A DNA stretch of 64,000 nucleotides, from positions 3,994,001 to 4,058,000 of the forward strand of contig NZ_CP139247.1 in NCBI RefSeq assembly GCF_034087045.1. Reading direction: 5' to 3'. Positions within the stretch are counted from its first letter, which is position 1; every line of letters begins with the position of its first letter. Shown here piece by piece: positions 377 through 58,800 of this stretch. This DNA comes from Chitinophaga sancti. Its GTDB lineage: Bacteria; Bacteroidota; Bacteroidia; Chitinophagales; Chitinophagaceae. The position numbers and the translations under genes are program-made. The notes under the pieces are model-generated. The model saw only the letters and a list, made by a program, of their open reading frames with translations, searched no databases and was not told the DNA's origin.

Positions 377-417
377 AAAAAATATTAGTACACTAATTTG
401 GTGGACTAATATTTTTT
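377..417. promoter_or_regulatory. 41-bp dyad, probable operator of the SusCD-sulfatase operon
   Basis: AAAAAATATTAGT (377-389) and its perfect complement (405-417) flank TTAGTNCAC-N7-GTGNACTAA, so the arms extend to 17 bases with one mismatch around a 7-base spacer. The dyad ends 6 bases before the -33 element of the promoter at 424-453. It is centred about 61 bases before the expected transcription start, a usual place for an activator. A related half site occurs at 47034-47049. The binding protein is unknown; a winged-helix dimer is a guess. Confidence 0.6.
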
Positions 418-423
418 ACTATT

Positions 424-453
424 TTTGTCTCAATATCACTGTAATTTATTTTG
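424..453 (+). promoter_or_regulatory. Bacteroidota-type promoter of the leader peptide / SusCD operon
   Basis: TTTG at 424-427 is followed after 18 bases by TTATTTTG at 446-453, one mismatch from the Bacteroidota -7 consensus TAnnTTTG. Transcription would start around 458-460, on or next to the ATG of the Cys-rich leader peptide, which would make that reading frame leaderless. Confidence 0.5.
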
Positions 454-457
454 TACA

Positions 458-532
458 ATGGCAAATACAGTACAAACCATTTATCATCAACCAGGATGTC
501 CTAACTCAGCCGACCGCTGTTGTTGCCGCTAA
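458..532 (+). CDS. Cys-rich 24-aa leader peptide, possible cysteine-responsive attenuator ORF
   Basis: A 24-codon frame opens at the predicted transcription start and ends with residues CPNSADRCCCR and TAA. Four of 24 residues are Cys (14, 21, 22, 23), three of them consecutive just before the stop. No Shine-Dalgarno-like sequence precedes it, as expected for a leaderless start. Downstream come 153 untranslated bases, a hairpin (686-713) and an operon with a sulfatase. Known parallel: poly-cysteine leaderless small ORFs in mycobacteria act as cysteine-responsive attenuators. Inference here: when charged tRNA-Cys is scarce the ribosome stalls on the Cys tract and the SusCD-sulfatase genes are read. 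It could instead be a chance ORF. The frame is too short for standard gene callers. Confidence 0.55.
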   Translation: MANTVQTIYHQPGCPNSADRCCCR

Positions 533-685
533 TGATATTTTCTTCCATTCAATCACCTTTCCAGCATAATAATCCTGACACATGCTTTCCTATGTCAATA
601 GCACGACATAAGAATGCCTCAAAACTGCAATATGCACACACATCTACATAACAAAGGCACACCAACCGTGTGTTAAAAAAAGAAA

Positions 686-721
686 GCCGGTAACTGCGGG
701 AACAGTCACCGGCCGGATTTT
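686..721 (+). terminator. Candidate attenuator hairpin in the SusC leader
   Basis: GCCGGTAACTG (686-696) pairs with CAGTCACCGGC (703-713) with one A-C mismatch and a CGGGAA loop, then CGGATTTTA follows. It lies between the Cys leader peptide and SusC, where an attenuator would sit. The U-tract is short, so terminator strength is uncertain. A similar GCCGG hairpin with one A-C mismatch precedes the SusC gene at 30732. The rest of the stretch 533-802 holds no further gene that I can see. Confidence 0.5.
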
Positions 722-802
722 AACAAGGCTCGTTATCGCACTACTCAACGACTCACATCGCTGGGCAGGCACCTTATTTTTTAATCGCTAACTACAAATT
801 TA

Positions 803-3800
803 ATGAAAAAAGTTCTCTTGCTCATCTCACTCACCCTGGGATTAGCACCTGTAACGTCGTATGCGCAAACAGTGAATGAACCAGTCATCAACTCCACACT
901 CACCGGCATTGTCGTAGACAGCAAATCCCAAACCCCGCTCATCGGGGCTTTGGTAAGGATCAAAGGTACCACCAACCAGGTGCTCACTGACAATAAAGGG
1001 AAGTTCTTCTTCAAAACAGGACAAAAACTTCCCTACGTACTCGAAGCAATTTATATAGGGTACAAAAAGCAGGAGATCGAAGCCACCAACTCACCACTCA
1101 CCATCACGCTGGTCGAAAACGAAAGCCAGCTCAACGAAGTCGTAGTAGTAGGTTATGGCACCCAGCGCAAAAGTGACCTCACCGGCGCCGTCGCCAGCGT
1201 GAACAAAGGATTGCTGTCACAACCCGCTGCTTCTTTCGACAATTTATTGCAAGGCTCTGTACCAGGTATCAATGTCACCCAGAGCTCCGGTGCACCCGGT
1301 GCCACCGCCACTATCCGTGTAAGAGGTGGCAACTCCATCAGCTTTGGCAACGCCCCTCTTTACGTGATCGATGGCTTTATCATTTATAATAACAATGATA
1401 ATGTAAACACCAGCGCGTCCAACGGGGTAGGGGTGAACGCCCTCTCTACCATCAATCCCAGCGATATAGAAAGTATCGAAATCCTCAAAGATGCTTCTGC
1501 CACCGCTATCTATGGCTCCCGTGGTGCAAATGGGGTAGTGGTGATCACCACCAAAAGAGGGAAACGCGGCCGTGACGAAATTAGCTATAGTACCTACTTT
1601 GGCCAGCAACAGGTGCGTAAAAAACTGAAGCTGCTCAATGCCTCCCAATGGGCCTCTCTCATCAATGATGTGAATACAAGCACAGGCAGCGCCAAAACCT
1701 ACAGCGACTCTGCCATCGCTGCCCTCGGAGCCGGTACTGACTGGCAATCCGCCGCGCTTCGCAAAGCACCCATTCAAAACCATGAGCTCTCTGTATCTGG
1801 TGGCGACGATAAATCGAGGTACCTCATCTCCGGCAACTACTTCAACCAGGACGGAATTGTTGTGAACACCGGTTTCAAACGCTACTCCGGCAGGATCAAC
1901 TATGAACGAAACATCGGCGACAAACTGAAAGTCTCCACCAATATATTCGGTAGCCAATCCATCGAGGATAAACTCTATGGAAATAGCTATAACAGCATCA
2001 ACTTCCAGAGCACCGCCTTCGCCAATTTATTACAGGTGTCACCCGTTGTGCCCGTCTACAATGCAAACGGCACCTATTATACGGCCAGCCCTTATTCCTC
2101 AATTCCTACCAACCCTATTCAGGATTTTAAATCCACCATTAACCGTACTTACATCCGTCGTATTCTCGGCAACGCCTCCGCAGAATACAAGATTCTCAAA
2201 GACCTCACCCTCAAAGTTACAGGCGGTACTGACCTCATTAATACCAAGCAAAATTATTACTCTCCCAGCTACGCGGGTTCGCCAGCTGGCAACAGCACCG
2301 GTTATGCTGCACAGGGCTATGCATCTGTGGGTAGTATTGCCGCATCTACCTGGATCAATGAAAACACCCTCACCTGGGATCATACTTTCAGCAGTAAGCA
2401 CTTCCTGAATGTACTGGCTGGTTATACTACCCAGCACCAGGAAGACCAGTCTGCCGTAGCCAGCGCACAGAAATTCCCCAATGACCTGACTACATTCAAT
2501 AACCTGAACTATGCAGGTACTGCTGTACTCTCTACCTCCGATGCACATGAATCATCATTGAACTCATACCTCGCAAGAGCCAGTTATTCTTACAACCATA
2601 TATACAATGTAACGATCTCCCTGCGTGCAGATGGTTCTTCCAAACTGGGTAAGAATAACCGCTGGGGTTACTTCCCTTCTCTTGGTATCTCGTGGAATGC
2701 AGGCAGGGAAAACTTCTTCCGTCCTGCCAGTGAAATCGTGAATGACCTGAAATTACGTGCATCTGTAGGTCGTACCGGCAACTCCGAAGTACCACCTTAC
2801 AGTTCACTGGCAGCACTGTCACCCAGCAATTACTACTTCAATGGTTCGCTGGTTACAGGTATCGCTCCTACACAGATCGCCAATCCCAATCTGAAATGGG
2901 AGACCACCACTCAATACAATGTAGGTCTGGATGCAGGCTTCTTCAATAACCGCCTCACCTTTACCTTCGATGCCTATTATAAGAAAACGACAGACCTGCT
3001 GCTGAATGTACCATTCCCGCTCTATTCAGGGTATTCCAGTGTATTGCAGAATGTGGGTAGCGTAGAGAACAAAGGAGTGGAGCTGAGTCTCTCATCTGAT
3101 AATATCAAAAGCAGTTCTTTTACCTGGAAGACCACCGCTGTCTTTGCTGTGAACCGAAACAAGATCCTGAGCCTGGGTCAGGGAACCGATTACTACTTCC
3201 CTTTGGCGCCAACAGGATATGTATCGCCGGTGATTGTAAAAGTTGGTTTGCCTGTCGGCAGTTTCTGGGGATATAATACCGCAGGGTTGCTTACCGCTGC
3301 AGACGTAGCGAAAGGTGTACCTTACCTTACCGGTGTATCTCAACAGGTAGGCGATACTAAATATGTAGATACAAATGGTGATGGTGCGATCACCACTGCT
3401 GATAAACATTACTTAGGCAGTGCGCAGCCTAAATTTACCTTCGGCCTCTCCAATACCCTTGCTTACAAAGGGTTTGACCTGTCCGTTTTCTTCCAGGGTT
3501 CTTATGGTAATAAGATCTTCAACTTCCTCCAGCAAAAACTGGAAATACCTACACTATCCCTCAACGCCTCTGCCACTTTGCTGGATAGATACAGTGCAAC
3601 CAATCCAAATGGTAAAGTTGCGAAAGCCACCAACGCGCCTGTAGCACAGGTGACCGACAGGTATGTAGAAGATGGATCTTACGTAAAACTCAAAACACTT
3701 TCTTTAGGCTACTCCATCCCCCGCGATGTGATCCGCCCGTTACATATCAGTCAGCTCAGGGTGTATGTCTCTGCCCAGAACATATGGACATGGACCAAAT

Positions 3801-3919
3801 ACACCGGCCTCGATCCCGAAGTCAATTTCTTTGATAGTGACAATACCAAGCAGGGTATTGACTACGGCGCCTATCCCAGCACAAAAGGTTTCCTCGCTGG
3901 TCTGAATCTGACATTCTAA
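803..3919 (+). CDS. SusC/RagA-family TonB-dependent outer membrane receptor
   Basis: The 1038-residue protein has an N-terminal signal peptide ending near SYAQ, then a carboxypeptidase-like regulatory domain (about 33-110, GIVVDSKSQTPLIGALVRIK), then the SusC plug with the family motif LNEVVVVGYGTQ, then a 22-strand barrel ending in LAGLNLTF. It imports ligands bound by its SusD partner, powered by TonB. It has no N-terminal STN domain and no FecI/FecR genes next to it, unlike the two other SusC proteins in this window. Its control therefore probably rests on the upstream dyad and leader peptide. The SusD gene starts 11 bases after its stop. The sulfatase two genes down suggests a sulfate-ester ligand (inference). 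Confidence 0.95.
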   Translation: MKKVLLLISLTLGLAPVTSYAQTVNEPVINSTLTGIVVDSKSQTPLIGALVRIKGTTNQVLTDNKGKFFFKTGQKLPYVLEAIYIGYKKQEIEATNSPLTITLVENESQLNEVVVVGYGTQRKSDLTGAVASVNKGLLSQPAASFDNLLQGSVPGINVTQSSGAPGATATIRVRGGNSISFGNAPLYVIDGFIIYNNNDNVNTSASNGVGVNALSTINPSDIESIEILKDASATAIYGSRGANGVVVITTKRGKRGRDEISYSTYFGQQQVRKKLKLLNASQWASLINDVNTSTGSAKTYSDSAIAALGAGTDWQSAALRKAPIQNHELSVSGGDDKSRYLISGNYFNQDGIVVNTGFKRYSGRINYERNIGDKLKVSTNIFGSQSIEDKLYGNSYNSINFQSTAFANLLQVSPVVPVYNANGTYYTASPYSSIPTNPIQDFKSTINRTYIRRILGNASAEYKILKDLTLKVTGGTDLINTKQNYYSPSYAGSPAGNSTGYAAQGYASVGSIAASTWINENTLTWDHTFSSKHFLNVLAGYTTQHQEDQSAVASAQKFPNDLTTFNNLNYAGTAVLSTSDAHESSLNSYLARASYSYNHIYNVTISLRADGSSKLGKNNRWGYFPSLGISWNAGRENFFRPASEIVNDLKLRASVGRTGNSEVPPYSSLAALSPSNYYFNGSLVTGIAPTQIANPNLKWETTTQYNVGLDAGFFNNRLTFTFDAYYKKTTDLLLNVPFPLYSGYSSVLQNVGSVENKGVELSLSSDNIKSSSFTWKTTAVFAVNRNKILSLGQGTDYYFPLAPTGYVSPVIVKVGLPVGSFWGYNTAGLLTAADVAKGVPYLTGVSQQVGDTKYVDTNGDGAITTADKHYLGSAQPKFTFGLSNTLAYKGFDLSVFFQGSYGNKIFNFLQQKLEIPTLSLNASATLLDRYSATNPNGKVAKATNAPVAQVTDRYVEDGSYVKLKTLSLGYSIPRDVIRPLHISQLRVYVSAQNIWTWTKYTGLDPEVNFFDSDNTKQGIDYGAYPSTKGFLAGLNLTF

Positions 3920-3930
3920 AATTAACAACC

Positions 3931-5382
3931 ATGAACAAATCACTCATCATATTTTCTTTACTTTTCGCTGCTGCCTGCAACAAGCTGGAAGAAGATCCGA
4001 ACTCCATCGTCACGGCATCGCAATTCTATAAAACGCAGTCAGACGCCGTTTCTGCCGTAGCAGCGGTTTACAGCACACTCAATACCGATGCTGCCGGCGA
4101 CTTCGTGATCTATGGCCGTGACCTGAACCTCTTAACAGGCAACGGTAGTGATGACCAGATCTTCAGTCCATCCAATACCAATACCGATGTACGTGCATTA
4201 GGTACTGCGACATATGTACCTGCTAATGACCGTATCAAAAAGAACTGGCAACAACACTATTTCGGTATCAGCCGTGCCAATGTGGCGATAGACAATATTC
4301 CGGATATAGACTTCGATACCACCCTTCGTGCAAGACTGGTACGCGAAGCTAAATTCATCAGGGGCTTACTGTATTTTAATATTGTACGTTTCTGGGGCGA
4401 TGCGCCTTTGGTGCTGCATGATCCTACCAGCATAGATGTGAATGCACAAAAGATAAAACGGAGTCCAAAAGATAGTGTCTACGCACAGATCATTTCAGAT
4501 CTGAATGAAGCGACCCTGTTGCCTAAGACATACACCGGTGCTGATGTAGGCCGTGCAACCAGTGGCGCGGCCCATGCATTGCTTGCGAAGGTTTATCTCA
4601 CCAGAAGAGAATGGGCAAAAGCCGCAACAGAACTCACCACGGTGATCAATGGTGGTTATGGCTACGCCTTATTTGATAACTTCCTCGATGTATTCCAGCA
4701 GGCGACCAAGAATGGCAAAGAACATATCTTCTCTGTACAATTTGGTACCAACCTTGGCGCAAAGAACAGTACCAATTCCCTGAGCAGTAGTAATTTTAGC
4801 TCTTTCAATCCCGCTGTATATCCCGGCGATCAGCCTGCAGACAGTACTTTGTATCAATTGTTCGCCAGCTTTGATGCCCGTCGTGACGTGACGTTCTTTA
4901 CACAGTTATATAATGCTGCCACCGGCAAGTATGTACAATTCGGCGCCGCGCGCTTCGCCAAGTTCATCGACTATTCCATTTCTCCTTTGACGAATCAGTC
5001 CATCAGTGGTATCAACTATCCTGTGATCCGCTATGCAGATGTACTGCTCATGCAGGCCGAAGTACTGAATGAAATCAATGGTCCTACAGCCGATGCCTAT
5101 GCTGCTATCAACCAGGTAAGGGCCAGGGCAAAGATCAGTAACCTCACAGCTGGTTTGAGTCAGGCAGCTTTTCGTGATTCTGTATTCCATGAAAGAAGAA
5201 AGGAATTCATACAGGAAGGCAATCGCTGGTTCGACTTGTCGAGAAGGGGAGGCACTTACCTGTACGATGCACTCAGGGTGTATCCTGCCAAGACAGGCGC
5301 TGCTGTGAAAGATACACTCTACCCGATCCCACAATCTGAAATAGATATTAATAACGAACTGACACAAAATCCCGGTTGGTAA
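3931..5382 (+). CDS. RagB/SusD-family nutrient-binding outer membrane lipoprotein
   Basis: The 483-residue lipoprotein has a signal sequence with lipobox FAAAC (lipidated Cys16), a TPR-like N-terminal SusD domain (motifs REAKFIRGLLYFNIVRFWGDAPLV) and a C-terminal RagB half with RRKEFIQEGNRWFDLSR and the usual ending LYPIPQSEI...LTQNPGW. It caps the SusC barrel and captures ligand at the cell surface. It follows SusC by 11 bases and precedes the sulfatase by 19 bases, so all three are likely one transcript. The ligand cannot be read from sequence; a sulfated compound is inferred from the neighbour. Confidence 0.95.
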   Translation: MNKSLIIFSLLFAAACNKLEEDPNSIVTASQFYKTQSDAVSAVAAVYSTLNTDAAGDFVIYGRDLNLLTGNGSDDQIFSPSNTNTDVRALGTATYVPANDRIKKNWQQHYFGISRANVAIDNIPDIDFDTTLRARLVREAKFIRGLLYFNIVRFWGDAPLVLHDPTSIDVNAQKIKRSPKDSVYAQIISDLNEATLLPKTYTGADVGRATSGAAHALLAKVYLTRREWAKAATELTTVINGGYGYALFDNFLDVFQQATKNGKEHIFSVQFGTNLGAKNSTNSLSSSNFSSFNPAVYPGDQPADSTLYQLFASFDARRDVTFFTQLYNAATGKYVQFGAARFAKFIDYSISPLTNQSISGINYPVIRYADVLLMQAEVLNEINGPTADAYAAINQVRARAKISNLTAGLSQAAFRDSVFHERRKEFIQEGNRWFDLSRRGGTYLYDALRVYPAKTGAAVKDTLYPIPQSEIDINNELTQNPGW

Positions 5383-5401: not shown

Positions 5402-7225
5402 ATGAAAAAACAATTTTTAGCCGCTGCTGTAATACTCTCTTCGCTCGCTGCGACGGCTCAAACTTATCAGGGCACTGTCGGCCGCACCCTCGCCGAATCC
5501 AAAGAGTGGTGGCCTGAACCTGTGCACCCACCACAAGGTGCGCCCAACGTATTGCTCGTATTGTTAGATGATGTGGGATTTGGTGCCAGCAGTGCTTTTG
5601 GTGGTTTAATCCGCACGCCTGTTTTTGATAGTCTGGCGGCTAACGGTCTTCGCTATACAAATTTTCATACAGCTGCCATTTGCGCACCTACCCGTGCTGC
5701 ATTGCTCACGGGCAGAAACCAGCACTTTGTACACATGGGTGGTTTTGCCCACTACTTTTCATCAGCGGGTTTCCCCGGCTGGGATGGTCGTATTCCCAGC
5801 TCTTCCGGTACCATTGCCGAAGTGTTGAAGAATGCAGGCTACAATACCTTTGCGGTTGGTAAGTATGGGGTCACACCTGATGAAGATACTTCCAATGCCG
5901 GTCCTTTCGACTACTGGCCTTCCGGCAAAGGCTTTGAACATTTCTTTGGTTTCCTTGGCTCACAAACAGATCAATATAAACCTGCACTGGCAGAAGACAA
6001 TGTAAATATCCAACCCGATGGCCGTCATTTCAGTGAACAGCTCACTGATAAAGCTATTAGTTATATCGCACGTCAGCAAAAGGCAGCGCCGGGTAAACCT
6101 TTCTTTCTTTACTATGCACCTGCGGCTACACACGCCCCACACCAGGTACCTGCTGACTGGCGTGATAAGTACAAAGGACAGTTTGACGAAGGTTGGGATG
6201 TATACCGCCAAAAGGTATTTGCCAACCAGAAGAAGCTGGGCATCATTCCTGTAAATGCCACCCTGCCTGCCCGCAATGCGCGTATCAAGGCATGGAACAG
6301 CCTGAGACCAGATGAACAAAAACTCTATGCACGCTTCTTCGAAGTCTATGCTGCATACCTTACCTACACCGATTACCAGGTAGGTCGTGTGATCAACTAT
6401 TTAAAGAGTATCAATCAGCTCGACAATACGCTCATCTATGTAGTAATTGGTGATAACGGCGCCAGCAAAGAAGGTACAGACGAAGGTGTCGTTTCCGGCA
6501 AACAAACACCGCGTGGTAATAAGAACCTCACCCGTGCAGAACTCACTAAATACAACGAAGAGAATATCGCACTCATTGGCACTCCTGAGTCAGACGCGAA
6601 TTATCCTTTAGGCTGGGCACAGGCGACCAATACACCTTTCAAATTCTGGAAACAGGATGCATTTGCAGAAGGTGGCACCCGCAATCCCCTCATTGTATTC
6701 TATCCAAAAAAGATCACAGACAAAGGAGCGCTGCGTACCCAATACGGTTACGTAACGGACATTCTGCCTACCACACTCGAGGTCACTGGCGTGCCATTTC
6801 CTGCAGCGATCAAAGGCATCAAACAGGATACCTTACAGGGTACGTCACTGGCTTACTCCTTTGACAATGCCAAAGCACCATCCCGTCATACTGAACAATA
6901 CTATTACATCTTTGGCAACCGTGCCGTGTACAAAGATGGCTGGAAAGCCGCAGCGGCACATCATCCTGATTACATTGATCTGAATGAGTATGCTGATACA
7001 AAGCACGATGTACAGAAGGATTTTGACAAAGATGAATGGGAACTCTATAATCTGAATGAAGATTTCAACGAGCAAAATAACCTGGCTAAAAAGTACCCGG
7101 AAAAACTGGCTGAGTTGAAGAAACAATTTGAGGAAGATGCGAAGAAATACAACATCTATCCGCTCATAGACTGGGAAGATGTTTTTACAGGAAAGTTAAT
7201 TAATGCAAAAAAAGTAAAACGATAA
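5402..7225 (+). CDS. Secreted arylsulfatase-type sulfatase (formylglycine class)
   Basis: The 607-residue protein has a signal peptide ending near ATAQ. The sulfatase core begins with the metal-binding LLVLLDDVGFG (Asp56, Asp57) and carries the active-site signature CAPTRAALLTGRN. Cys94 would be oxidised to formylglycine by a maturation enzyme not in this window. VIGDNGA later supplies further metal ligands. Overall organisation resembles Pseudomonas AtsA-type arylsulfatase, which releases sulfate from aryl or alkyl sulfate esters under sulfate starvation. It sits in the SusCD operon and is followed after 3 bases by a tiny membrane protein gene. Periplasmic or surface sulfate release is likely; the exact substrate is unknown. 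Confidence 0.93.
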   Translation: MKKQFLAAAVILSSLAATAQTYQGTVGRTLAESKEWWPEPVHPPQGAPNVLLVLLDDVGFGASSAFGGLIRTPVFDSLAANGLRYTNFHTAAICAPTRAALLTGRNQHFVHMGGFAHYFSSAGFPGWDGRIPSSSGTIAEVLKNAGYNTFAVGKYGVTPDEDTSNAGPFDYWPSGKGFEHFFGFLGSQTDQYKPALAEDNVNIQPDGRHFSEQLTDKAISYIARQQKAAPGKPFFLYYAPAATHAPHQVPADWRDKYKGQFDEGWDVYRQKVFANQKKLGIIPVNATLPARNARIKAWNSLRPDEQKLYARFFEVYAAYLTYTDYQVGRVINYLKSINQLDNTLIYVVIGDNGASKEGTDEGVVSGKQTPRGNKNLTRAELTKYNEENIALIGTPESDANYPLGWAQATNTPFKFWKQDAFAEGGTRNPLIVFYPKKITDKGALRTQYGYVTDILPTTLEVTGVPFPAAIKGIKQDTLQGTSLAYSFDNAKAPSRHTEQYYYIFGNRAVYKDGWKAAAAHHPDYIDLNEYADTKHDVQKDFDKDEWELYNLNEDFNEQNNLAKKYPEKLAELKKQFEEDAKKYNIYPLIDWEDVFTGKLINAKKVKR

Positions 7226-7537: not shown

Positions 7538-8440
7538 ATGCTTGTACATATCGAAACCATTTTTCGGAATCTCAATGGCTGGGGACTACCTGTCATCATG
7601 CTGCTCATTGGTGTGATCGAATTTGCTTATGGACTCTATGAAAATCACTGGACGAAGAATGAAAAGGTGCTGGATATTGTCTGCTTTATTATACCAAAGA
7701 TCATTGTAAGACCTTTCGTGGCTTACGTCGGTCTGTTATTATTCCCCCGTTTTCTGCCGGATGCGAAGAATGCATTTGCATGGGTACCTTCCTGGTGGGG
7801 ATTCGCCATCATAGCAGTAGCGGATGATCTTACACAGTACTGGTATCATCGGTTGCATCACCAGTTGCCATGGTTATGGCGATTTCACCGTACACACCAT
7901 TCCGCGCCTTACATGGGTATGGCCATGGCGAGCAGGCAGAATGTGATCTATACCATTTTCTTTTCACAGATCTATTTGACTACAACGCTGGTGTACCTGG
8001 GGTTAGGATATCCTGTATTGTTTGTAACAGGGGTGAAAGCGCTGATTACAACAGGAGCGCATTCCAGTATAAAATGGGACAAACCGTTTTATACCATCAA
8101 ATGGCTGAAGCCAATAGGTTGGGTGATGGAAAGGGTAATTTCCACACCTGCCACCCACCATGCGCATCATGCGGATACTTCAGATGATGGGGTTGGGTAT
8201 TATAAAGGGAATTTTGGGAATATGTTCTTTATCTGGGACCTGGTATTTGGTACCGGGATAATAACCCGTCAATATCCTACCGGGTATGGGATCAAACATT
8301 ATAAACAGGAAGAGTGGTATGCCCAGTTTCTGTGGCCGATATTCAAATCTAAGAAAGAAGGAAGCGAACTGGCGGCAAACGGGCCTATGGTAGGGGATGC
8401 CTTGCCGTCGGAGGCGCCTGCGGCAGTGGCAGGGGCATAA
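7538..8440 (+). CDS. Sterol desaturase / fatty acid hydroxylase superfamily membrane protein
   Basis: The 300-residue integral membrane protein has several hydrophobic segments and the family's histidine clusters that bind a di-iron centre: HRLHH (from His104), HRTHH (from His117) and THHAHHAD near residue 205. Members hydroxylate or desaturate lipids such as sterols, fatty acids or sphingoid bases. It is the last gene of the SusCD-sulfatase operon and is followed by a strong terminator. A lipid hydroxylase at the end of a sulfatase operon is unusual. It may act on the desulfated product, or modify envelope lipids under the same control (inference). Confidence 0.88.
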   Translation: MLVHIETIFRNLNGWGLPVIMLLIGVIEFAYGLYENHWTKNEKVLDIVCFIIPKIIVRPFVAYVGLLLFPRFLPDAKNAFAWVPSWWGFAIIAVADDLTQYWYHRLHHQLPWLWRFHRTHHSAPYMGMAMASRQNVIYTIFFSQIYLTTTLVYLGLGYPVLFVTGVKALITTGAHSSIKWDKPFYTIKWLKPIGWVMERVISTPATHHAHHADTSDDGVGYYKGNFGNMFFIWDLVFGTGIITRQYPTGYGIKHYKQEEWYAQFLWPIFKSKKEGSELAANGPMVGDALPSEAPAAVAGA

Positions 8441-9245: not shown

Positions 9246-10007
9246 ATGAACTTCAACCTGGATAAGATGCCCGAACGTACGCAACGGCCCCGTTCTAATG
9301 GCATCACAATGGTAACCGACAAAGGACTGAGCCTGCAAGACACAAAAGACTTCTTATCCGTTGCATCACCACATGTAGACATGGTAAAGCTCGCCTTCGG
9401 TACGGCCTACGTAACGCCAAACCTGAAGGAGAAAATAGACCTGTTCCATTCCTTCAATGTACCCGTCTATTTCGGAGGCTTACTCCTCGAAGCATTTATC
9501 ATCCGCAACCAGTTTGATGACTACCTGAACGTAGCCAAAGAATATGGTATCAAATATTTTGAAGTATCCGACGGATCACTCGATATCCCACACGCTGAAA
9601 AATGCGGGTATATAGAAAAACTGGCAAAACTAGGCACTGTATTAAGTGAAGTAGGTTCCAAAGATAAAGACCGTGAGCACATCACGCCTCCTTATAAGTG
9701 GATTGAGTTGATGAAAGCTGAGATGGATGCTGGTGCTGCATATGTAATTGCAGAAGCAAGAGAGCAGGGTACGGTAGGGCTGTATCGTGACTCAGGTGAG
9801 GTGAGAGAAGGGTTGGTACAGGAGATTCTCACAAAGATCCCCGGGGAGAAAATCATTTGGGAAGCGCCACGTAAGGATCAGCAATTGTATTTCCTGCGTT
9901 TGGTAGGTTGTAATGCCAATCTCGGCAATATATCATCCAATGAAGTGATTTCTCTTGAGGCGATGAGAGTGGGGCTGAGAGGTGATAGTTTCCATTTTTA
10001 TTTGTAA
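9246..10007 (+). CDS. Phosphosulfolactate synthase (ComA) family protein
   Basis: The 253-residue TIM-barrel protein matches the ComA family throughout, with motifs GITMVTDKGLS, VKLAFGTAYV, FEVSDGSLDIP, IAEAREQGTVGLYRDSGEVR and WEAPRKDQQLYF. ComA joins sulfite to phosphoenolpyruvate to give phosphosulfolactate, the first step of coenzyme M synthesis in archaea. Bacteroidota do not make coenzyme M, and no ComB or ComC gene is nearby. A role in making sulfolactate, or a sulfonate precursor such as those needed for the sulfonolipids of this phylum, is possible but inferred. It has its own -7 element and terminator, so it is a single-gene unit. Confidence 0.88.
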   Translation: MNFNLDKMPERTQRPRSNGITMVTDKGLSLQDTKDFLSVASPHVDMVKLAFGTAYVTPNLKEKIDLFHSFNVPVYFGGLLLEAFIIRNQFDDYLNVAKEYGIKYFEVSDGSLDIPHAEKCGYIEKLAKLGTVLSEVGSKDKDREHITPPYKWIELMKAEMDAGAAYVIAEAREQGTVGLYRDSGEVREGLVQEILTKIPGEKIIWEAPRKDQQLYFLRLVGCNANLGNISSNEVISLEAMRVGLRGDSFHFYL

Positions 10008-30731: not shown

Positions 30732-33700
30732 ATGCGAAAAATTTTCTCAGGTTATTATAACCTGTTTAAAAAGCTATTTACCCTGAAAATGAGACTAACG
30801 AGCTTTCTGATACTTTTTTCTTCGGTCATTTCCTTTGCAGCCACCGGCTCAGGCCAGTCTATGCACGAAGTGAAGGTAAGCCTCCAGGTCGATAACAGAC
30901 CTATTAAGGAAGTGCTGGCCCTTATCGAAAAGCAATCTGCTTTTGTGATCGGGTACAACCAGGACAATATTCCCGATAGTAGCAGGATCAGCTACCACGG
31001 GAATAATAAGTCGGTGAGCGATGTGCTCAAAGACATCCTCAATATTTACCCGGTGGTAGCCCGCCAGGTAAATGAGAAATATATCGTGCTGAACAAGGTA
31101 TCTTATTCGGAAAAATACCTGCTCATGCAACAGATCACCATCACTGGTAAAGTGAGTGATAAAACCACCGGCGAAATGCTGCCGGGCGTGAGCATTGCCA
31201 TAAAAGGTACTTCTTCAGGAACCGCTACCGGTGTGGATGGTCAATTCTCCCTGCGTTTTCCGCAGGATCAGGAGCAGATCACTTTGGTGATCTATTCCCT
31301 TGGGTACAAGAAAATTGAAATCAACCTGACCCGCGACCAGGCCGCTGCCCCGCTTAACTTCCAGCTGGAAACCGACCGTATGGGGCTGGATGAAGTAGTG
31401 GTGACCGGTCAGGGACAGGATATCTCCAAAAGAAGACTCTCGTCAAACATCGTATCTATTGGTGCGAAGGAGCTGGATCAGGCACCTTCGGGTAGAATTG
31501 ATCAGATCCTTCAGTCACGTCTGCCAAATGCCCAGATCCGCCTTACAGGTGGTCAGGCAGGTGCTACCTCCATCATCCGTGCAAGAGGCGTAAATTCCGC
31601 TTTTGTAAACTCTACACCTATCATCTATGTGGATGGTGTGAGAATGGATAACCTGAATACTGCTTCCAAGCTCGGTGGTGGTTCTGCTACCGGTGCTGCC
31701 GTGAGCTCTATCGCAGATATTCCTATGGACAATATTGAAAAGATCGAGTACATCAATGGTGGTGCTGCTACAACGATGTATGGTTCGGATGCAGCAAACG
31801 GGGTGATCCAGATCTTTACAAAAAAAGGCGGTTCTGACAGAACGGACGTAACTGCCGAAACACAGATGGGGGTTGAAACGCCTACCGCCGATTTCCTGCA
31901 CTTCAAACGTACCAAAGATCTGCTGTTCCAGAATGGTTTTTATCAGAAACAACACCTCGCGATCAATGGTGGTAAGGACAACTTTGGGTACAGTTTTTCC
32001 GGCAACTATATGAATAGCCAGGGAGTACAGATCTATGACCAGAACAGGAACAAACGTATAGATTTCTCCAGCGGTTTCCGGGCCGCGCTGGGTAAGAAAG
32101 TCACTTACGAAAGCAGCTTTACCTATATCAATAATAACTACAAACGTAACAGGAATGGTAACCAGGGTGGCTATACCGGATTATGGTTTGCAGAGAGTGG
32201 TGCAAGCGCCATCACCGGTCCGAAGTTCAGTCCTGTGATCGATACATTGTCTGCCGCTTCCTATGCGAAGATGAAAGCATATGTAGACGAAGCAGAACAA
32301 TTGCAGAACAATAGTATTAAGGTAAACCGTTTCCAGACTTCACAGGTATTTAAATATTCTCCCCTTAAGAACCTCGTGTTCAAAGCAACGGGTGGTATTG
32401 ATTATCGTGTGATGCGCAATCAGGTGATCACAACGAACCAATACCTGTCTGTTACCACGAATACAAAAGTGGTAGATCAGGGTAGCGTGAGCAATACGGA
32501 CAGAAAGTACATGGGGATCACCCTGGAACTGAATGGCCAGTACCAGGCTAAGTGGAGAGACTTCTCATTTGTAACCACTGCCGGTGGCCAGTACTTCCGC
32601 AACGAAGATCAGCAGATCCAATACATAGGTAGTAATATCCGTGATGGTGCACAGATCATAACCGGTGCCGCTACCAAGACCAGCGATGAATATTATTTAG
32701 AGGTGGTGAACTACGGTATGTACCTGCAGGAGAATGTGGGCTTTAAAAATAAACTCTTCCTCGATATGGGTGTAAGAGGTGATGGGAATCCTGCATTTGG
32801 TAAAAACATTGGTGTGCAATATTATCCCAAAGTAGGATTGTCCTATATACCTGTTGCGGAACCCTGGTTCGACGGCGTCTCCAAAGTGATCTCTTCTGCG
32901 AAACTAAGGGGAAGCTTTGGGGTAGCCGGGAACCTGCCGACTGCTTTTGCCAATCAGCGTACCATTGCTTTCAGTGGTTATCAGAATGAGCAGGCAGCGT
33001 ATTTTGGTCAGCCGGGTAATGATAACCTGAAGCCTGAAAAGACACAGACCACAGAAGGTGCTTTGGACCTGGGTTTTGTACATGACCGGATCTTAGTGTC
33101 CGCAGGTTATTATCATTCATTGACAAAAAATGCCCTGTTTTATGTGCCTGCTACGCCTTCGAGCGGACAGTCACAATCTCAGCTCTACAACGTAGGTAAG
33201 ATACTGAACCGTGGTTTTGAATTCAACTTTGTGGTAGTACCTATTGAGACCAGGAATACTTCCCTCCGCCTGAATGCATCTGTGAATACCCTGTATAATA
33301 AGGTGCAAAGCAGCGGTGGTGTAGCCGCATTTAATATCAACGGTTTTAGTGCCAGAACGATTCAGACGGTGGTACAGGAAGGGTATGCCATTGGTTACCT
33401 GAGAGGGAATAAAGGTGTATTTGCAGCAGATGGTACACTCGCTTCTACGACCGCACAGCAGTACCTGGGCACGACTATTCCTAACCTGTTTGGTAGCATG
33501 GGCCTGAACTTCCGCTTTAAAGACCTGGAAGTATTTGCGAATGCAGACTATCAGAAAGGGGCTTATGCAAACTCTTTCGACCGTCAGTTCCGCTTTTATT
33601 ACAGCGCTTCCAATGAAGGTATTCCACAGGCGGAGATTACAAAGAACGGCCGTACTAACTGGCTGAACTTTACAAACCGCTTTGTAGAAAAGACGGACTT

Positions 33701-47007: not shown

Positions 47008-47033
47008 CCGTTGGCCCATGTTGAAAAAGAGTA

Positions 47034-47063
47034 TTAGTCTACTAAATTAATATAGTATATTTG
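47034..47063 (+). promoter_or_regulatory. Promoter with TTAGT-type half site before the M28 peptidase gene
   Basis: TATATTTG (47056-47063) matches TAnnTTTG and lies 33 bases before the ATG. Upstream and overlapping the -33 region is TTAGTCTACTAAATTA (47034-47049), 13 of 16 bases identical to the reverse strand of the dyad at 394-409. A second arm of the dyad is only weakly kept here. Position suggests repression or site-specific activation. Confidence 0.5.
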
Positions 47064-47095: not shown

Positions 47096-49306
47096 ATGCA
47101 AACCCGTAGTATTACTTGTGTATTGTCTGTTTTCCTGAGCTATGCCACGCTGTCGACAGCACAGCAAAAACCAATCACTGGTTATAACAGCAGTGAATCT
47201 GCCGCACAGCTACAGTTGGAGACCCGCTTCGACAAACTGCTTTCCGCAGCAGCCATCGGAGATAACATCAGGACGCTTTCTGCTTACCCACATCATATAG
47301 GCTCGGCCCGTGGAAAGGCCGTGGCTGAAGACATTGCTGCCAAATTTAAAAGTTATGGTTTTGAAACGAACATCGTCTCCTACCAGGTGTTGTTTCCTAC
47401 GCCAAAAACAAGAGTGCTGGAACTAACGGGTCCCACTCCCTATAAAGCTGTACTAAAAGAACCTGCATTGAAAGAGGACGGCACTTCTGCACAGGAGGGA
47501 CAGTTGCCTACTTACAATGCATGGAGCGCAGATGGCAATGTCAACGCGGAACTCGTATTTGTTAACTACGGGTTGCCTGAAGATTATGAGTGGCTGGAAA
47601 GACAGGGAGTGGATGTAAAAGGCAAGATCGTCATTGCAAAATACGGACATAGCTGGAGAGGTATCAAACCTAAAGTCGCTTACGAACATGGGGCGATCGG
47701 GTGTATCATCTATTCAGATCCGGCAGATGACGGTTATACCCAGGGGGATGTATATCCCAAAGGTGCCTATAAAAATGAATACGGGGTGCAAAGGGGATCA
47801 GTCATGGACATGGTAATTTACCCCGGCGACCCGCTCACACCGGGTACCGGGGCTACGGCGTCTGCGAAAAGGCTGGAAAGAACGCAGGCACCTACCATCC
47901 TGAAAATACCGGTATTACCCATCAGTTATCACGATGCGCAGCCCTTGCTCAAAAGTCTGCAAGGCCCTGTAGCACCGGCGGCGTGGAGAGGTACATTGCC
48001 CATTACCTATCACGTAGGTCCCAGTATTGGCAAAGTGCACCTGGAACTGGCTTTTGACTGGAAATTAGTACCTGCCTATAATGTGATCGCCAAAATAAAA
48101 GGCGCCAAATATCCTGACCAATGGGTGATAAGGGGCAACCACCACGATGCATGGGTGAACGGCGCTTCTGACCCAATCAGTGGTATGGCGGCAGAACTGG
48201 ATGAGGCGAAGGCCATCGGCCAGCTCGTAAAATATGGTTATCAACCTGCACGTACACTGGTGTACTGTGCCTGGGATGGCGAAGAACCCGGTTTGCTCGG
48301 ATCTACGGAGTGGGTAGAAGATCATGCACAGGAGCTGCAACAGAAAGCGGTGGCTTACATCAACAGCGATGGCAACGGCCGTGGCTTTTTGTATGCAGGT
48401 GGCTCGCATGCACTGGAACCATTGGTGGCGGATATAGCACAGACAGTGACCGATCCGCAAACCAAAGTGAGTATCTATGAACGTAAAAAAGCGGCAGATG
48501 TTTTAAAAGCCGGTAATGCCAAAGCAAAGAAAGACCTGCTGCAACAGCAACAGCTTACCCTGAGTGCACTGGGTTCCGGGTCTGACTATTCCTCCTTCTT
48601 ACAGCACCTGGGGGTGCCTTCACTGAATATCGGTTTTGGAGGGGAAGATGAAGGGGGTGATTACCACTCTATCTTTGATAGCTGGGATCACTATCGTCGT
48701 TTCGGTGATCCTGAATTTGCCTACGGTGTAGCGCTGGCACAAACTGCGGGCAGAGCTGCCTTACGGCTGGCCGATGCACCGGTACTGCCTTTCAACTTCA
48801 GCAATCTGCAAAAAACTATTGCAGGATATGTAAAGGAACTGGATGCACTGGTGACGACCATGAGAGAAAATACGGCTATCGAAAATGAACTGATACGAAA
48901 CCGCCAGTACGATCTGGCAGCAGATCCCCAGGAAAAGGTAAAGGCGCCGGTTGCAAAGGCGGAGGTACCTTACCTGGATTTCTCTCCTTTGCAGAATGCA
49001 TTGGTGGCACTGGATACAGCAGCGAACCATGCAAATGTAAAGGCAGCAGGAACAGGGGACAAGGCGGCTATCAACCAGGCACTTTATCAGGCGGAACAAC
49101 AGCTGTTAGTAGCGAATGGTTTGCCACGGAGAGACTGGTATAAACACGCTATTTATGCACCGGGTTTTTATACCGGTTATGGGGTAAAAACGGTGCCGGG
49201 TGTGAGAGAGGCGATAGAGCAAAGAAATTGGAAAGAAGCACAGGAACAGATTATAATAGTGGCAGGTGCGATCAATAAACTCGCAGCTTACTTAGAAAAG
49301 ATGTAA
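47096..49306 (+). CDS. Secreted M28 family metallopeptidase (glutamate carboxypeptidase II-like)
   Basis: The 736-residue protein has a signal peptide (cleavage near LSTAQ), a PA domain inserted near 150-270 (GKIVIAKYGHSWRGIKPKVA), a di-zinc M28 peptidase domain (VIRGNHHDAWVNGASDP, CAWDGEEPGLLGSTEW, DYHSIFDSWDHY) and a transferrin-receptor-like dimerisation helix bundle at the end. This order is that of glutamate carboxypeptidase II (M28B). It likely trims acidic dipeptides or short peptides in the periplasm. A strong terminator follows. Confidence 0.93.
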   Translation: MQTRSITCVLSVFLSYATLSTAQQKPITGYNSSESAAQLQLETRFDKLLSAAAIGDNIRTLSAYPHHIGSARGKAVAEDIAAKFKSYGFETNIVSYQVLFPTPKTRVLELTGPTPYKAVLKEPALKEDGTSAQEGQLPTYNAWSADGNVNAELVFVNYGLPEDYEWLERQGVDVKGKIVIAKYGHSWRGIKPKVAYEHGAIGCIIYSDPADDGYTQGDVYPKGAYKNEYGVQRGSVMDMVIYPGDPLTPGTGATASAKRLERTQAPTILKIPVLPISYHDAQPLLKSLQGPVAPAAWRGTLPITYHVGPSIGKVHLELAFDWKLVPAYNVIAKIKGAKYPDQWVIRGNHHDAWVNGASDPISGMAAELDEAKAIGQLVKYGYQPARTLVYCAWDGEEPGLLGSTEWVEDHAQELQQKAVAYINSDGNGRGFLYAGGSHALEPLVADIAQTVTDPQTKVSIYERKKAADVLKAGNAKAKKDLLQQQQLTLSALGSGSDYSSFLQHLGVPSLNIGFGGEDEGGDYHSIFDSWDHYRRFGDPEFAYGVALAQTAGRAALRLADAPVLPFNFSNLQKTIAGYVKELDALVTTMRENTAIENELIRNRQYDLAADPQEKVKAPVAKAEVPYLDFSPLQNALVALDTAANHANVKAAGTGDKAAINQALYQAEQQLLVANGLPRRDWYKHAIYAPGFYTGYGVKTVPGVREAIEQRNWKEAQEQIIIVAGAINKLAAYLEKM

Positions 49307-55810: not shown

Positions 55811-58800
55811 ATGGCGAAGCATGTTTGTAGCGCTATTGGAACCCTTTGTGTTTTATACCTGTTTTTACTACCGTCCGCTGTTCTGGCCCAACCTGCTAAC
55901 CACAGCGTGAAAGTAACGGTGGTGGGTAAACACTTTCCATTATCTGCTATTTTTAAAAGTATTTCAAAGCAGACCGGTTACTATTTTGTTTACGATAATG
56001 CTATCCTGGATGAGTCTGAAAAAGTAACTGTACACTTTCGAAAAGTACCCTGGGAACAGGTATTACAAGTCGTTTTACAAGGTAGAAACGTTAGCTGGAC
56101 GTTGCTGAATAACAGGATCTTTTTACAAAAAACGGCGGATGTCAACATTGTTCCCGTGCCGGTTCCTGCAAAGGATTCCCTGCCCTACGTGGTAAAGGGT
56201 TACATCAGAACAGAAGGAGAGCAACCCGTGCCGGGCGTAACCGTGCTCCTCAAAGGTACCTCCCGTGGTATTACTACGGGAAACGATGGTGCATTTGAAC
56301 TGAGCCACCTGCCCCGCAATGCGGTATTACATATTTCGTCACTGGGGTTTGCTCCGCTGGATACGGTGTTGACACCTTTTCGTACCCATGTGATCCACCT
56401 GTCAGAAGCCGTGAATAGTCTGGATGCCGCCGTGATAATTGGCTATGGCGCCAGTAGCCGCCGCCTGCTCACGGGCAATGTGAACCGCGTTTCCGCGCAG
56501 CAGATCGCAACCCAGCCGGTGGTGAATCCACTCTCTGCCCTGCAGGGACAGATCCCCGGTTTACTCGTCATGAATACCAATGGACTGCCCGGCGCTGAAA
56601 TCAAAGTGTATATAAGAGGTCGTAATTCCATTGCTGCAGGCAATAACCCTTTGTTTATTATAGATGGGGTGCCTTTTGATATCACCCCGCTCAATAACCT
56701 GGATGAACTACAGGGCGCCATAAAGTATATCAGCCCGTTTAACAGCATCAATGCGGCAGATATAGAAAGTATCGACATTCTCAAAGATGCGGATGCTACG
56801 GCCATCTATGGCTCCCGTGGGGCCAATGGGGTCGTACTCGTGACCACCAAAAAAGGGAAAACGGGAAAGCCCCTCCTGGACCTGAATATTTACCAGGGCG
56901 CCGGGCGTACAGCAGGATCTCTCAGTATGCTGAATACCACCCAATACCTGTCCCTGCGCAGGGAAGCTTATCGTAATGACGGCGTTACCCCTACTGTGGC
57001 AGTAGCCCCCGACTTACTGCTATGGGATACTACCCTTAATATGAACTGGCCGAAATACCTGACTGGTGGCACTGCGCCTGTTACCAATGCACAACTGAGT
57101 TATTCCGGGGGCAGTGAACGCACTACTTTCAGACTGGCAGGCAACTATTACAGGCAGGGTTCCGTATTGCCTGCTGCATTGAGGTATGCAAGGGGGGGCG
57201 GGCATTTCAGTATACAACACCACGATGTAAATGAGCGCTTTGAGATCAACAGTACGACTTTATTTACAACAGATAATAATCAGAGTATTTCCAACGATCT
57301 TTTCTCGCTGGTGAACCTACCTCCTGATTATCCTATGTATGACCGCAATGGTAAGTTCTTCTGGGGTTCTTATCTCGATAATCCGGCAGCGTATTTAATA
57401 CAACATGCGAATAGCCAGACAAGTAATTTACTGAGCAATGCCGTATTGCGCTATCGGTTATTGCCGGGGCTGTACCTGAAGGCCAGTGGCGGGTATGCCC
57501 GTATTGATATGCAACAGACCTTTTCCTTCCCGCAATCTTCACAGCATCCGGAAAATGCAGTGACCAGTTTTACACGGGTGGCGGACAACAGAAGAGCGGG
57601 ATATATTATAGAACCACAGGCCGATTACACCTTACGTATTGCAAAGGGAAGTCTGCATGCTTTGATCGGCGGCACCTTTCAGCGTACCCTGAGCAATGGG
57701 CAGTTTGCCGAAGGCAGGGGCTATGCAGATGAAAATCAGTTAGGATCACTGAAGGGTGCGGATACCATTATCCGTAAGCCGGATACGCACGGGGAATACA
57801 GGTACATTTCTTTCTTTACCCGCTGGAATTACAACTGGCAGGACAAGTACCTGCTAAATGTGAGTTATAGAAGGGATGGTTCTTCCCGTTTTGGACCTGG
57901 CAGACAGTTTGGGGACTTTGGTGCTATCGGTGCAGCATGGATCTTTTCAGAAGAACAGTGGATGCGGCGCCTGACCTGGCTGAGTTTTGGTAAACTCCGT
58001 GTGAGTGGTGGTATTACGGGCAATGACCAGATACCGGATTACCAGTATATGAGCAACTATGGGGTGAATGGAAATTACCAGAACAGTAGTACGCTATCTC
58101 CTTTGCGCATTGCCAATGATGGTTATAGCTGGGAGGAGAACCGAAAGCTGGAAGCAGCACTTGAACTGGGGTTTCTGCATGACCGGTTGTTTTTTGCCAT
58201 CGCACGGTATGACAATTGGAGCAGTAATCAGCTGGTAGGGTATCAGTTACCGGGCATCTCCGGTTTTTCCAGTTACCAGGCGAACCTGCCTGCCATAGTA
58301 CGCAACAGGGGGTGGGAGATAGAGTTGAATGCCACCATCATTCGAAATAAACAATTCGGTTGGAAGAGTAGTCTGAATGCCACATTCTTTGGCAATAAAT
58401 TACAGTCATTCCAGGGGTTAGCGGCATCTTCCTATGCGAATACATTTGTGATCGGGCAATCGTTGAACATTGTGAGGGGCTATCATTTTCAGGGGGTAAA
58501 TCCGGAGACTGGTGTCGCCAGGTTTGAAGATGTAAATAAGGATGGGTTCCTTTCCAGCGCCAATGATTTTGTAACGATATCTAACAAGGATCCCCGTTAC
58601 TATGCGGGTATTACAAACGATCTTACTTACAGGCAATTTTCGCTCAGTTGCTTTCTGCAATATGTGCGGCAGCAGGGCAAAACCTTTGTGAATGCGCCGG
58701 GTGGTCAGGGCAATGAAACCATTGCAGCGCTTAGCCGCTGGCAACACTATGGCGATCAGACCAATGTGCAGCGGGCCAGTGCCACGCCGGGAAATGAGGC

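Follow-up and report, generated by a model that had tools for sequence, protein, structure and literature searches.

The short frame ending in a run of Cys codons between the promoter region and susC of a Chitinophaga sancti operon is probably a cysteine sensor for the uptake of sulfate esters. The window, i.e., the whole stretch of DNA analysed, covers 64,000 nucleotides of a genome of 8.3 Mb. As sulfatase and importer genes follow the frame and its promoter element resembles the one at the sulfate-assimilation genes, the simplest reading is that the supply of cysteine is sensed. When charged tRNA-Cys is scarce, ribosomes translating the leader would stall on its Cys run, and expression of the sulfate-ester uptake genes would likely rise. 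The output that we favour, which is the least certain step, is control by Rho: a ribosome finishing the leader normally would allow Rho-dependent termination in the C-rich and G-poor RNA behind it, and a ribosome sitting on the Cys codons would block this termination. An Rrf2-type regulator at the promoter would constitute the first layer, the cysteine-codon attenuation being stacked on a promoter-level sulfur switch. As a tentative model, of which we are not quite half persuaded, Bacteroidota of at least three families would control outer-membrane import by a sulfur-starvation switch with two layers, an Rrf2-type operator at the promoter and one or two Cys leaders that would sense how far tRNA-Cys is charged and thereby decide on Rho termination ahead of susC. 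Against the reading as a cysteine sensor stand the lack of a sense terminator (T-tract in 2/86 operons), the failure to find an antiterminator, and the cysH operon, which has a related element but no Cys run.

Cys-ended leader frames and their operons

The layout given in the original prediction was found in the window: the 24-codon frame ending RCCCR-stop is present in the sequence, and a hairpin, SusC, SusD and a sulfatase follow (Table 1). This SusC had also been set apart from the other two of the window by the lack of FecI/FecR and of an STN domain. ECF-sigma and FecR genes indeed precede the other two, and none was found in the first 800 bases of the window; of these two, the SusC at 55811 gave an STN match and that at 30732 gave none. 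No Rfam match reached the gathering score anywhere in the window, permissive matches within 300-850 all staying below the gathering scores of their families, and NCBIfam gave no match for the six leader peptides tried (one queried without its first residue). The sulfatase operon of [Flexibacter] sp. ATCC 35208 is 99% identical to that of the window, and the SusC of another genome of the same genus (G046) is identical to one from Chitinophaga silvisoli.

Table 1. Positions of the leader, its flanking elements and the operon genes within the window
Feature	Position	Strand	Remarks
Promoter element and putative operator TTAGTACACTAATTTGGTGGACTAATA, partly palindromic	385..411	+	Profile match; putative binding protein
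Likely -33 box TTTG	397-400	+	Inside the palindromic element
Predicted -7 box TATTTTTG	420..427	+	19 nt after TTTG 397-400; in 12/12 orthologues
Cys leader frame	458..532	+	24 codons and stop, MANTVQTIYHQPGCPNSADRCCCR; Cys tract kept in relatives
Three adjacent Cys codons of the leader	518..526	+	Another Cys codon stands alone at 497-499
Untranslated stretch after the leader	533..685	+	More C than G; putative site of Rho loading
Hairpin H1	686..713		A-tract before; terminator-like on the minus strand, not the plus strand
Hairpin H2 (approximate place)	743..765	+	Counterpart of the covarying Flavobacterium hairpin, homology by position only
SusC	803..3919	+	TIGR04056
SusD	3931..5382	+	
Sulfatase	5402..7225	+	Nearest among solved structures, arylsulfatase 1hdh
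Fatty-acid-hydroxylase-family gene	7538-8440		3' of the sulfatase

The spread of the leader was examined for 146 SusC genes, 86 with and 47 without a sulfatase in the operon, 13 being dropped because the stretch was too short to classify the operon. Two of the controls (L062 and L133; a gap, a broken frame) are sulfatase operons, and with their reassignment the comparison became 88 versus 45. Controls were taken mainly from 40 regions, 20 of which had been picked at spaced ranks and the other 20 from different rows, and the scan of species genomes with a sulfatase profile covered the best 80 loci, in a genome list that starts from one sulfatase type. With Cys pairs allowed, a looser test by which a few weak frames enter (e.g., those of L060 and L127:16547), a Cys-ended short frame was found upstream of susC in 79 of the 88 SusCD-sulfatase operons versus 4 of the 45 other SusC genes. 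The stricter test asked for a short ATG frame, at most 600 nt upstream, with at least three Cys among its last nine residues; it gave 70/86 versus 5/47, and was passed by 0-3/86 dinucleotide-shuffled upstream regions in 20 repeats. The residues ranking next to Cys by this test were Leu (27/86 versus 8/47 controls) and Lys (19/86 versus 3/47). Conservation of the Cys codons in relatives, on which the original prediction had been made to depend, is borne out by these counts; the wide spread of the leader, its tandem copies in Flavobacterium and the promoter element related to that of sulfate assimilation were no part of that prediction. The frame is absent upstream of 9 of the 88 sulfatase operons, one of which (L079) has just 211 nt of upstream sequence.

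Of 30 SusC loci examined from a first protein search, 13 have a short upstream ATG frame containing CCC. When 20 operons were compared, all 14 with a Cys frame had the order SusC-SusD-sulfatase, and the frame was absent in three further sulfatase operons (L058-L060) and in three SusCD operons without sulfatase (L063-L065). Leaders end in RCCCR, SCCCC, DCCCCCC and GGCCCCMGC among near orthologues, and in RCCFVCCCTR, WCCFVCCCQ, RCCSVCCCKM, GKCCCRLL and SPCCC among more distant ones. They were detected in the families Chitinophagaceae, Sphingobacteriaceae and Flavobacteriaceae, the genera including Chitinophaga, Puia, Ferruginibacter, Arachidicoccus, Pinibacter, Mucilaginibacter, Hufsiella and Flavobacterium. 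In a quick tree, in which about every fourth Flavobacterium row was kept, the SusCs of sulfatase operons form one clade except for L200 and L213; the leader counts are therefore not independent, and the association reflects long retention rather than many origins. As to the window's own genome, CCCR-stop occurs at 11 sites, all of which were examined; short ATG frames were found in L005, L007, L011 and L012, and just that of the window was followed by a long frame at a distance of no more than 600 nt. For CCC-stop (79 matches), the 30 loci examined held one weak case, L176, with a short frame followed by a gene at 357 nt. A contig labelled Beijerinckiaceae (L070), probably mis-binned, also contains a SusCD-sulfatase operon typical of Bacteroidota, complete with Cys leader.

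The leader is doubled in Flavobacterium, as observed for the 39 operons with the hairpin GCCATTTCTG: leader 1 is a frame of 28-29 codons starting with TTG or GTG, and leader 2 an ATG frame of 6-11 codons. Leader 2 was taken with no selection for Cys, yet two or more Cys are present in 39/39 operons, as in MKTMQTCCCK and, the shortest, MKRSCC; its stop codon lies 5-9 nt before hairpin H1. Leader 1 was found in 37/39 operons; it closes with forms like CYMCFCC, 139-291 nt ahead of the hairpin. Its Cys25, Cys27 and Cys28 are invariant in 33/33 unique copies, an invariance partly built in, as the copies were picked for three Cys in the last eight residues; both TGT and TGC are used, and the pN/pS of 0.46 indicates conservation extending beyond Cys. 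Since Cys is kept while TGT and TGC vary, selection acts on cysteine, which implies that its decoding matters. In 12 Flavobacterium genomes, CCCK-stop occurred 34 times versus 0 for the reversed pattern. Among 30 of these loci examined, eight are ATG leaders adjoining the hairpin, all eight before a SusC gene, and the remaining 22 showed no short ATG frame ahead of a nearby gene.

RNA between the leader and susC

Amino-acid attenuation had been proposed for this operon. The Cys-codon leader before a SusCD-sulfatase operon stands, the leaderless start probably does not, and the sense terminator does not. H1, which had been taken for the terminator, is preceded by an A-tract in 57/86 operons and followed by a T-tract in 2/86; a terminator scan of 300-830 gave no plus-strand site and assigned H1 to the minus strand (714-685). 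H1 as a sense terminator is therefore ruled out. The original prediction saw no clear antiterminator, and neither did we; pairing of the Cys codons with the apex of H1 is unsupported by codon choice (mean rank 0.46, 87 cases).

The RNA behind the leader mildly favours Rho by its composition, which is C-rich and G-poor. The excess of C over G within 80 nt after the leader stop is about +0.10 (69 cases) versus -0.012 for 225 control windows. The signal is weaker when judged by the best window (at least 0.15 in 47/86 versus 11/45 controls), and the stretch 533-685 of the window has a slightly more stable fold than its shuffles (z -1.98), contrary to an unstructured Rho site. Rho is encoded.

The leader might instead act on translation, on RNA stability or through a minus-strand antisense RNA ending at H1, with cysteine still the signal and transcription termination not the output. 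This appears rather unlikely, although several features speak for it. H1 is terminator-like on the minus strand, with the A-tract before it as counted above, and antisense RNAs of the DonS type, 78-128 nt long, are described as repressors of susC homologues (PMC7366714). Furthermore, H2 covaries in Flavobacterium, with 303/309 cells paired against a mean of 277 and a maximum of 287 for shuffles, the structure being derived from the same sequences used for scoring; 5/8 pairs have changes on both sides. On the other hand, no enrichment over a reversed control motif was seen for a minus-strand promoter box close to where susC begins (15/86 versus 17/86), and A-tract hairpins like H1 were also found at 9/45 controls.

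In the window itself, a minus-strand TAAATTTG box is located at 802-795, at the susC start, and the minus-strand terminator (714-685) lies about 90 nt before susC. Together they would accord with an antisense RNA of the DonS type, about 100 nt long.

Promoter element and transcription start

Transcription presumably starts at about 432-435, judging from the form of Bacteroidota promoters. The leaderless start of the original prediction was based on the box TTATTTTG at 446-453 near the ATG, and is probably wrong here: this box is present in 4/12 orthologues examined, and TATTTTTG follows the palindromic element in 12/12. The distance from TATTTTTG to the leader ATG is 30 nt in the window and 8-72 nt across the 12 orthologues, so that the leader of the window probably has a 5' UTR ahead of the frame. 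One orthologue (L067), with the upstream box 8 nt before the ATG, could be leaderless. For Bacteroides, most mRNAs are described as having a 5' UTR of 23 nt, and leaderless ones as rare (PMC7366714).

The palindromic element, TTAGTCTACTAATTTGGTAGACTAATA, was detected at a profile score of 10 in 79/86 sulfatase operons, and since the profile was trained on these operons, its fair yardstick is the rate in controls (4/45) and shuffles (0/86). With 900 nt upstream, the count was 82/88 operons. Element and leader mostly occur together: both were found in 77 of the 88, the element only in five, the leader only in two, and neither in four. A related element with a different middle part was detected before cysH of the sulfate-assimilation operon, beside an Rrf2 gene, at 12/15 Chitinophaga loci above the cut; the Rrf2 identity was given by Pfam for the one cysH neighbour tested. 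An Rrf2-type regulator is the putative binding protein of the promoter element. In 96 kb of other loci of the window's own genome, the profile gave five matches, some being the known sites.

Control could reside in the promoter alone, where a regulator at the palindromic element would sense sulfur status and the Cys frame would add little. The near-constant presence of the element, the five operons with element and no leader, and the related element at cysH, where no Cys run was found upstream at any of 15 loci, agree with this explanation. It is nevertheless improbable, because a Cys run kept in every leader 2 of the Flavobacterium set, and kept with a free choice between TGT and TGC, implies that decoding matters. 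The combination of promoter element and Cys-codon leader is preferred.

The only other match to the element in the own genome with at most three mismatches, at 47032-47054, precedes a gene for an M28-family peptidase at 47096; this gene may be controlled in the same way. Strong matches to the promoter element are also present in four SusCD operons in which no sulfatase was detected (L186, L190, L205 and L209); an S15-family hydrolase comes next in L190, and L186 contains the frame MISMYSSICCSCRTHST. Three loci (L054, L056 and L057) share the stretch TTTTTAGCACCACC, followed by ATAAAA, about 50-75 nt before the leader ATG and flanked by short inverted repeats.

Relation to known systems and neighbouring genes

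Classical attenuators of the trp and his type have leaders rich in codons of the sensed product, and TnaC is an upstream frame with Rho-dependent control. The operon described here resembles the trp and his attenuators in its leader peptide with regulatory codons, but differs in that neither an intrinsic sense-strand terminator before the first gene nor an alternative pairing was found, the pairing examined being that of the Cys codons with the H1 apex. Among the closest known systems are the leaderless short ORF attenuators of mycobacteria with polycysteine tracts, for which cysteine sensing is reported to have been proposed (Canestrari et al. 2020). Short upstream frames, adjacent Cys codons and sulfur-related genes behind them are common to both. 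What differs here is the occurrence in Bacteroidota before an outer-membrane SusCD import operon, the tandem leaders of Flavobacterium, the promoter element similar in kind to that of cysH, and the probable 5' UTR before the frame.

CruR is likewise an upstream frame before a gene for a TonB-dependent transporter, and has a stretch with C over G which the RNA behind the leaders described here would resemble (PMC9426467). The frames analysed here differ from it in that they are very short, have their Cys codons at the very end and lack DUF2946, and Rho action on them is putative. Following CruR, which senses copper via CXXC and acts through Rho before a transporter gene of the same kind, the nascent Cys-rich peptide might sense metal or redox state. 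This is very unlikely, since the Cys are mostly within the last residues and have not left the ribosome when the stop codon is reached, so that they cannot yet bind anything outside it and would act as codons; moreover, their spacing is not kept (CCCR, CCCCCC, CCFVCCC), and CruR consists of 145 residues of DUF2946. That the leader peptide itself is the functional product is barely credible: leader 1 of Flavobacterium is conserved beyond Cys, but leaders can be as short as MKRSCC, have little in common but Cys, and include the six for which NCBIfam gave no match.

In common with the DonS antisense RNAs of Bacteroides SusC genes, the operon has a terminator hairpin on the minus strand some 90 nt ahead of susC; a Cys leader is present here and goes without mention in the passages on DonS, and antisense transcription is putative here (PMC7366714). 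One source mentions attenuation by leader peptides upstream of amino-acid operons in Flavobacterium psychrophilum (PMC9723704). Among the top matches of a full-text literature search, with subscription papers mostly outside its reach, no title or abstract described a Cys leader ahead of Bacteroidota SusC or sulfatase genes.

The usual view of SusCD operons is that they take up carbon sources under the control of sugar sensors or sigma/anti-sigma pairs. If the cysteine reading is true, one SusCD clade would serve sulfur nutrition and answer to cysteine supply via ribosome stalling, which would give a physiological role to many SusCD-sulfatase operons of soil bacteria and extend cysteine attenuation beyond mycobacteria; Cys leader and promoter element together would then be a sequence mark for finding such operons. 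The two-layer switch, if true, would make these the first SusCD operons under amino-acid attenuation, Flavobacterium having two Cys leaders in tandem, the weak-start one of 28 codons followed by one of 6-11 codons.

As to the neighbouring genes, a relative of the fatty-acid-hydroxylase-family gene was found within 9 kb downstream of SusC in 59/88 sulfatase operons and in 0/45 controls. The product of the gene at 9246-10007 is a phosphosulfolactate synthase like ComA (arch_ComA of NCBIfam, with 246.8 bits short of the cut-off of 280), and such a gene was found near only 4 of the 88 sulfatase operons.
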